A stretch of 64,000 nt of DNA from Halococcus sediminicola (lineage in GTDB: Archaea > Halobacteriota > Halobacteria > Halobacteriales > Halococcaceae). The stretch covers positions 248,001 to 312,000 of the forward strand of contig NZ_BBMP01000022.1 of NCBI RefSeq assembly GCF_000755245.1. Reading direction: 5' to 3'. The notes under the pieces are model-generated. The model ran no database searches. It had not been told where the DNA came from and was given only the letters and a program-made list of their open reading frames with translations. Each line of letters opens with the position of its first letter. Position 1 is the stretch's first letter. This document shows positions 24,814 to 30,189 of this stretch, piece by piece. Both the position numbers and the translations under genes were made by a program.

Positions 24814-24889
24814 AGCCAAGGGCCGGATTTGAACCGGCGATGGGCGGCTCTGCAGGCCGCTGCGTTAGGCCGGACTCTGCCACCTTGGC
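24814..24889 (-). tRNA. tRNA-Cys (anticodon GCA), distal tRNA of the rRNA operon
   Basis: A minus-strand cloverleaf with acceptor stem GCCAAGG/CCTTGGC and discriminator U, which is the identity base of archaeal tRNA-Cys. Anticodon stem GCGGC/GCCGC closes loop CTGCAGA, giving anticodon GCA. The T arm is GCCGG TTCAAAT CCGGC. It lies 110 nt downstream of the 5S gene in the same direction, the classic haloarchaeal arrangement. Confidence 0.92.
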
Positions 24890-24968: not shown

Positions 24969-24988
24969 GGGCTACCGAAAGGTAGCCC
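24969..24988 (-). other. Perfect 8-bp stem-loop just after 5S rRNA
   Basis: gggctacc and ggtagccc (24969-24976 and 24981-24988) pair perfectly around a four-base loop (UUUC in the minus-strand transcript). It begins about 11 nt after the 3' end of the 5S gene and before tRNA-Cys. No T-run follows, so a 3'-processing or protective hairpin is more likely than a terminator. Confidence 0.7.
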
Positions 24989-24999
24989 GAAGTATGAAT

Positions 25000-25230
25000 G
25001 GGAGGCGGCGAACCACTAGTTACGAGCCGTTGTAACGGAACGGTCTCGGGTTCCACCGGGACGGACCCTGCGTGTACTTCCGATTGCGTTCCTGGGCTCG
25101 CACTTGGCCCCTCTTGCGAGGCAGTTTTCCCAGAGGTTCGCACACTCCAGTACTCGCTGGAACGCTGGCGGGCTTATCTGCCGTGTTCGGGATGGGTACG
25201 GGAGTCGCCCCGCCGCTGTGGCCGCCTTAA
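25000..25230 (-). rRNA. 5S rRNA with a ~108-nt internal insertion
   Basis: The transcript begins UUAAGGCGGCCACAGCGGCG and shows the conserved ACUCCCGUACCCAUCCCGAA region and the arm CCAGCGAGUACUGGAGUG. The expected 3' end (GGUUCGCCGCC, pairing with the 5' GGCGGCC to close helix I) is not found about 12 nt later but only at 25004-25014. About 108 nt lie between GGGAAA and GGUUCGCCGCC, at roughly 25015-25123. Total length is about 231 nt instead of about 122. This matches the 231-nt 5S rRNA with a 108-nt insertion long known from Halococcus morrhuae. Exact ends are estimated from pairing of the termini. Confidence 0.92.
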
Positions 25231-25354: not shown

Positions 25355-28287
<2,933 letters not shown>

Positions 28288-28318
28288 GTCTTCTAATCAG
28301 AATCCATGAACCCGCTGA

Positions 28319-28497: not shown

Positions 28498-28569
28498 TGG
28501 ACCCACTGGGATTCGAACCCAGGGCATCCTCCTTGCAAAGGAGGCACTCTCCCACTGAGCTATGGGCCC
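28498..28569 (-). tRNA. tRNA-Ala (anticodon UGC) in the 16S-23S spacer
   Basis: A 72-nt cloverleaf with acceptor stem GGGCCCA/UGGGUCC (one G-U pair) and discriminator A. The G3-U70-type identity pair of tRNA-Ala is the third pair, as expected. The anticodon stem CCUCC/GGAGG closes loop UUUGCAA, giving anticodon UGC. CCA is not encoded. It is located in the spacer between 16S and 23S, as in other haloarchaea. Confidence 0.95.

Positions 28570-28715: not shown

Positions 28716-30189
<1,474 letters not shown>

Follow-up and report, generated by a model that had tools for sequence, protein, structure and literature searches.

The closest known counterpart of the gene analysed here is the expanded 5S rRNA of Halococcus morrhuae, which is 231 nt long and includes an insertion of 108 nt (Luehrsen et al. 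1981, as cited in PMC7812874). The insertion lies beside loop E (PMC7812874; PMC7530397), and direct RNA sequencing and cryo-EM have found it in the mature RNA (PMC7812874, PMC7530397); according to work cited in PMC7812874, the mature molecule is 231 nt and the organism is without any other 5S rRNA. Outside Halococcus, published carriers are Halalkalicoccus, Halomarina and Halodesulfurarchaeum (PMC7812874). In our comparison their inserts are homologous to that of Halococcus and lie at the same site, with mean identities to it of 94%, 75% and 81%, respectively, and the expanded form is their sole 5S type. The bacterial expanded 5S rRNAs (Thermoanaerobacterium, Halanaerobium and others; PMC7812874) likewise carry a folded insert in the 5S core, but are set apart by their published description: the insertions are at other sites, belong to unrelated structural types, and often occur beside normal copies (PMC7812874).

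The DNA analysed here, a stretch of 64,000 nt from Halococcus sediminicola (the window), contains a complete rRNA operon on the minus strand, with the genes for 16S, tRNA-Ala, 23S, 5S and tRNA-Cys (Table 1). From 25230, where it opens with UUAAGGCGGCC, the 5S gene runs to about 25000, the end of its 3' strand GGUUCGCCGCC; these two ends of the gene close helix I, in which GGCGGCC pairs with GGUUCGCCGCC. Measured between two shared landmarks, 5S genes of the normal type in haloarchaea of this order span 119 nt and the window gene 227 nt, so that the extra piece is 108 nt. In the transcript it sits between U108 and G217, next to loop E, at the point that corresponds to the junction of core residues 104 and 105 in H. 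morrhuae. An initial annotation, made from the sequence alone, had described a 5S gene with an insertion of about 108 nt, and its boundaries were correct to within 1-2 bases. It had also identified the insertion as the H. morrhuae type; the site and length are indeed those published.

Table 1. Features of the rRNA operon and of the expanded 5S rRNA gene in the window.
Feature	Position	Strand	Length or basis
5S rRNA gene, expanded type	25000..25230	-	231 nt; RF00001 and H. morrhuae alignment
5S core, 5' part, including loop E AGUA/GAA	25123..25230	-	108 nt; alignment to haloarchaeal 5S genes of both types, normal and expanded
Expansion segment	25015..25122	-	108 nt; comparison with 119-nt normal genes; covariance model R1 match, 114.8 bits
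5S core, 3' part (GGUUCGCCGCCUCCC), helix I 3' strand	25000..25014	-	Paired with the 5' end in every or almost every one of 30 relatives
23S rRNA, operon shared with 5S	25359..28291	-	Rfam RF02540, 2823 bits
tRNA-Ala, 16S-23S spacer	28498..28569	-	Rfam RF00005; anticodon UGC read in alignment
16S rRNA, operon shared with 5S	28716..30189	-	Rfam RF01959, 1575.7 bits
tRNA-Cys, downstream of 5S	24814..24889	-	Rfam RF00005; ARAGORN predicts tRNA-Cys at the corresponding position of related loci
Candidate terminator or processing hairpin GGGCUACC-UUUC-GGUAGCCC, just 3' of 5S	24969..24988	-	Sequence reading
Insert helix 1, short junction hairpin CCUCGCAAGAGG	25108..25123	-	Compensatory changes in 2 of 5 pairs
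Insert long arm, helices 2-4	25018..25104	-	Double-sided changes in 15 of 18 pairs
Long-arm helices	25096-25104/25018-25027, 25087-25092/25037-25042, 25080-25083/25046-25049	-	
Insert apical hairpin (helix 5)	25054..25074	-	Almost invariant
AGUA (25075-25078) / GAA (25051-25053) internal loop	25051..25078	-	Conserved; bulged-G (loop E-like) sequence signature

The window gene shows why automatic annotation places the 3' end wrongly. The Rfam 5S model, RF00001, matches positions 25111-25229 of the minus strand with 68 bits against a threshold of 38, and does so over the whole model (1-120), but it closes helix I with a stretch of the insert in place of the true 3' strand, with several mismatched pairs. 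The prediction that a covariance-model scan would miss the gene or show it as broken is thus not borne out: the match is full-length and above threshold, with a false 3' end. Halalkalicoccus, Halomarina and Halodesulfurarchaeum share the mis-annotated 3' end, an error that Stepanov and Fox described in every sequenced expanded 5S gene of archaea (PMC7812874).

The gene was compared with the 5S rRNA of H. morrhuae DSM 1307 (NZ_AOMC01000054.1, contig 54, at 66311, as in PMC7812874). Length, insertion site, fold and place in the rRNA operon are the same, and 226 of 231 positions (98%) are identical. Such identity, together with the covariation behind the insert fold, puts the observation far outside chance. 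All five substitutions lie inside the insert, and four of them form two compensatory changes of predicted pairs, C-G to U-A at 131/208 and A-U to G-C at 142/191, while the fifth, at position 152, is unpaired. The 16S rRNA shares 99% identity with its H. morrhuae counterpart, and the genome falls in the same genus group as DSM 1307 (G077), in agreement with the initial assignment of this DNA to Halococcus. As an object the window gene is already known, here from one more Halococcus genome; what is added below is the covariation evidence, a wider and older distribution, a mismatch between insert and 23S rRNA, and copies on plasmids.

The expanded gene is the only 5S detected, and the 16S gene is likewise single, in a draft assembly of 27 contigs and 95.5% completeness, from which a second operon could be missing or in which it could be collapsed. 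A second, normal 5S gene, which the initial annotation had named as the sign of a pseudogene, was not found in this draft. Disruption by an insertion that nearly doubles the length of the gene, with the cell using a normal 5S rRNA encoded elsewhere, has counterparts in some bacteria, where expanded 5S pseudogenes occur alongside normal genes (PMC7812874). Here such an explanation is very improbable, because the assembly holds no other 5S gene; moreover, the core and helix I are intact and conserved, the insert has undergone compensatory changes, and the ribosomes of H. morrhuae use the same RNA. Introns exist in archaeal rRNA and tRNA, and a segment with its own fold inside a conserved RNA gene might be an intron or intervening sequence whose removal during maturation yields a normal 5S rRNA. 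Against this, the nearly identical gene of H. morrhuae keeps the insert in its mature RNA by both direct RNA sequencing and cryo-EM, and we give removal of the insert hardly any credence.

We are left in little doubt that the window encodes a functional 5S rRNA of a Halococcus close to H. morrhuae, and that the insert is kept; that the insert likely moved between 5S genes is much less certain. Retention in the mature ribosomal RNA of the window strain is inferred on two grounds: the RNA of H. morrhuae is almost the same molecule, and the assembly shows no further 5S gene. The operon would be transcribed in the order 16S, tRNA-Ala, 23S, 5S, and the 5S rRNA would be trimmed to about 231 nt with the insert in place, by what is presumably the same processing as in H. 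morrhuae.

Support for the fold of the insert comes from an alignment (A1) of 30 expanded 5S genes. In the consensus fold the 5S core is preserved, and the insert contributes a short hairpin as well as a long arm that is capped by a stem-loop. Helix I pairs (columns 5-12 with 223-231) are kept in 29 or 30 of the 30 sequences. Across the 30 insert pairs, 98.9% of alignment cells are paired, a percentage somewhat favoured by deriving the fold from the alignment on which it was tested, and 18 of the pairs show changes on both sides. None of 500 shuffled controls was as good, and structures slid along the alignment scored far lower; the shuffle control ignores relatedness among the sequences, while the sliding control corrects for it and is equally clear. 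Covariation over diverged families indicates selection on the fold of the insert. The hairpin CCGU-UACA-ACGG and the pairing GGGUCC...GGAACCC suggested at first are not the pairs supported by covariation: GGG pairs with a CCC close by, and CCGU lies partly within a longer helix. At the base of the long arm (A1 columns 201-212) the sequence takes two main forms, CCGUUAYAACGG in families f1 and f14 and GUCGAC in f4, f12 and f2, and both are self-complementary.

Adjoining the apical stem, the arm has AGUA opposite GAA, the same letters as in the core's own loop E. Of the 30 aligned relatives, 29 retain AGUA and 24 have both halves intact; two f2 sequences have AGUA with GGAA at this site, and two f9 genomes have an extra G. 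Judged by its sequence signature, the internal loop may form a second three-dimensional bulged-G motif; the terms “sarcin” and “bulged-G” do not occur in PMC7812874. In the proposed structure the 5S core folds normally. The insert departs from it next to loop E and comprises the short hairpin and the long arm, giving a four-way junction directed away from the large subunit; the loop E-like motif in the arm might dock a protein or RNA.

The distribution of the insert was determined by scanning a covariance model against 394 sampled Halobacteriales genomes and a phylum-wide sample of 394 genomes. Matches were found in 41 of the Halobacteriales genomes, representing 12 of 95 genera, and in 7 genomes of the phylum-wide sample, all of them Halobacteriales. 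The carriers belong to families f1, f14, f12, f4, f9 and f2 (group labels), and include two diverged families absent from the list published in 2021. The insert is accordingly not unique to Halococcus, as had been assumed in the initial annotation. Named carriers from the survey and the literature (PMC7812874) are Halalkalicoccus, Halomarina, Halodesulfurarchaeum, Halocatena, Actinarchaeum and more, of which Halocatena and Actinarchaeum are not mentioned in PMC7812874. Within the incomplete coverage of our literature search, no other paper on expanded archaeal 5S rRNA was found after 2020. Viral contigs gave no match to the conserved insert pattern. Sorting expanded from normal genes by BLAST only had mislabelled two f9 genomes (G009, G037) as normal, which the covariance model corrected; genome G093 was excluded as its contig ends inside the 5S gene. 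The survey makes an old question, the role of the insert in the ribosome, more testable, and close relatives with and without it, in genus g64 of family f4 and in family f14, offer natural comparisons.

Two draft assemblies of 0.9-1.1 Mb from f2 (G001, G018; loci L183, L184) have a strongly diverged insert in their 5S genes. In G001 a second, bacterial-looking 5S gene on another contig (L191, 1500-1680) is probably contamination.

That f9 and f2 have diverged inserts at this very site suggests that the insert is old, which would fit an insert that the ancestor of all Halobacteriales already had and that was then lost many times without horizontal transfer. When presence of the insert is mapped on the RpoA1 tree, however, 8 changes are needed, at least 6 of them forced by well-supported branches, although relationships among families are only in part resolved in the RpoA1 trees. 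Similarity of the inserts also conflicts with the adjacent 23S rRNA. The 23S tail (the last ~1 kb, adjoining 5S) groups by family where resolved: Halalkalicoccus falls beside G073, a relative with the normal 5S, and the expanded g64 genome likewise beside its normal relatives. By contrast, inserts of Halococcus and Halalkalicoccus are 94% identical, against 72% for Halococcus and g2 of its own family, while the 23S-tail identity is 0.89 for both comparisons; Halococcus, Halalkalicoccus and g2 are about equally far from the Halomarina inserts (75%, 76% and 72%). With these two points against it, we consider purely vertical descent with losses rather unlikely.

The mismatch between insert and 23S rRNA fits a history in which either the insert or the 5S gene was exchanged and the 23S gene was not. 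We regard this as likely, but the evidence is suggestive rather than proof, as topology tests on the insert alone (~108 columns) did not reject family monophyly (p-AU 0.064, 0.18 and 0.23). Exchange is likely to have occurred by recombination across the conserved core of haloarchaeal 5S genes, possibly helped by plasmid-borne rRNA operons. We tentatively propose that the 108-nt segment might be an ancient, selected ribosomal module of at least six haloarchaeal families, two of them very diverged, with a second loop E-like motif, that has been passed on horizontally, possibly via plasmid operons. If so, one component of the ribosome would act as a mobile trait.

Complete 16S-tRNA-23S-5S operons are present on two plasmids of H. 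dombrowskii H4, of 260,739 and 350,887 bp (NZ_CP095007.1, L216, and NZ_CP095009.1, L217), and their expanded 5S genes are identical to that of H. morrhuae. These plasmid operons are a possible vehicle for transfer of the insert. The PLSDB gene table, which is incomplete, lists nothing over the plasmid 5S genes.

Transfer of the insert to bacteria was considered for a contig in a “Bacteroidetes” bin (L060, PXTT01000034.1, 1-400) and rejected. At its start the contig has a haloarchaeal expanded 5S gene and, after it, tRNA-Cys, and it is similar to a contig from Halobacteriales; its place in a Bacteroidetes metagenome bin is probably a binning error. In the draft genome of H. thailandensis (G061; L005, 1411-1485 and 1777-1822), partial 5S repeats surround the gene, each beside a single N, and are probably scaffolding artefacts. 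Actinarchaeum halophilum carries identical expanded 5S genes, one on each of two replicons called chromosomes (L049, CP071306.1, and L063, CP071307.1).
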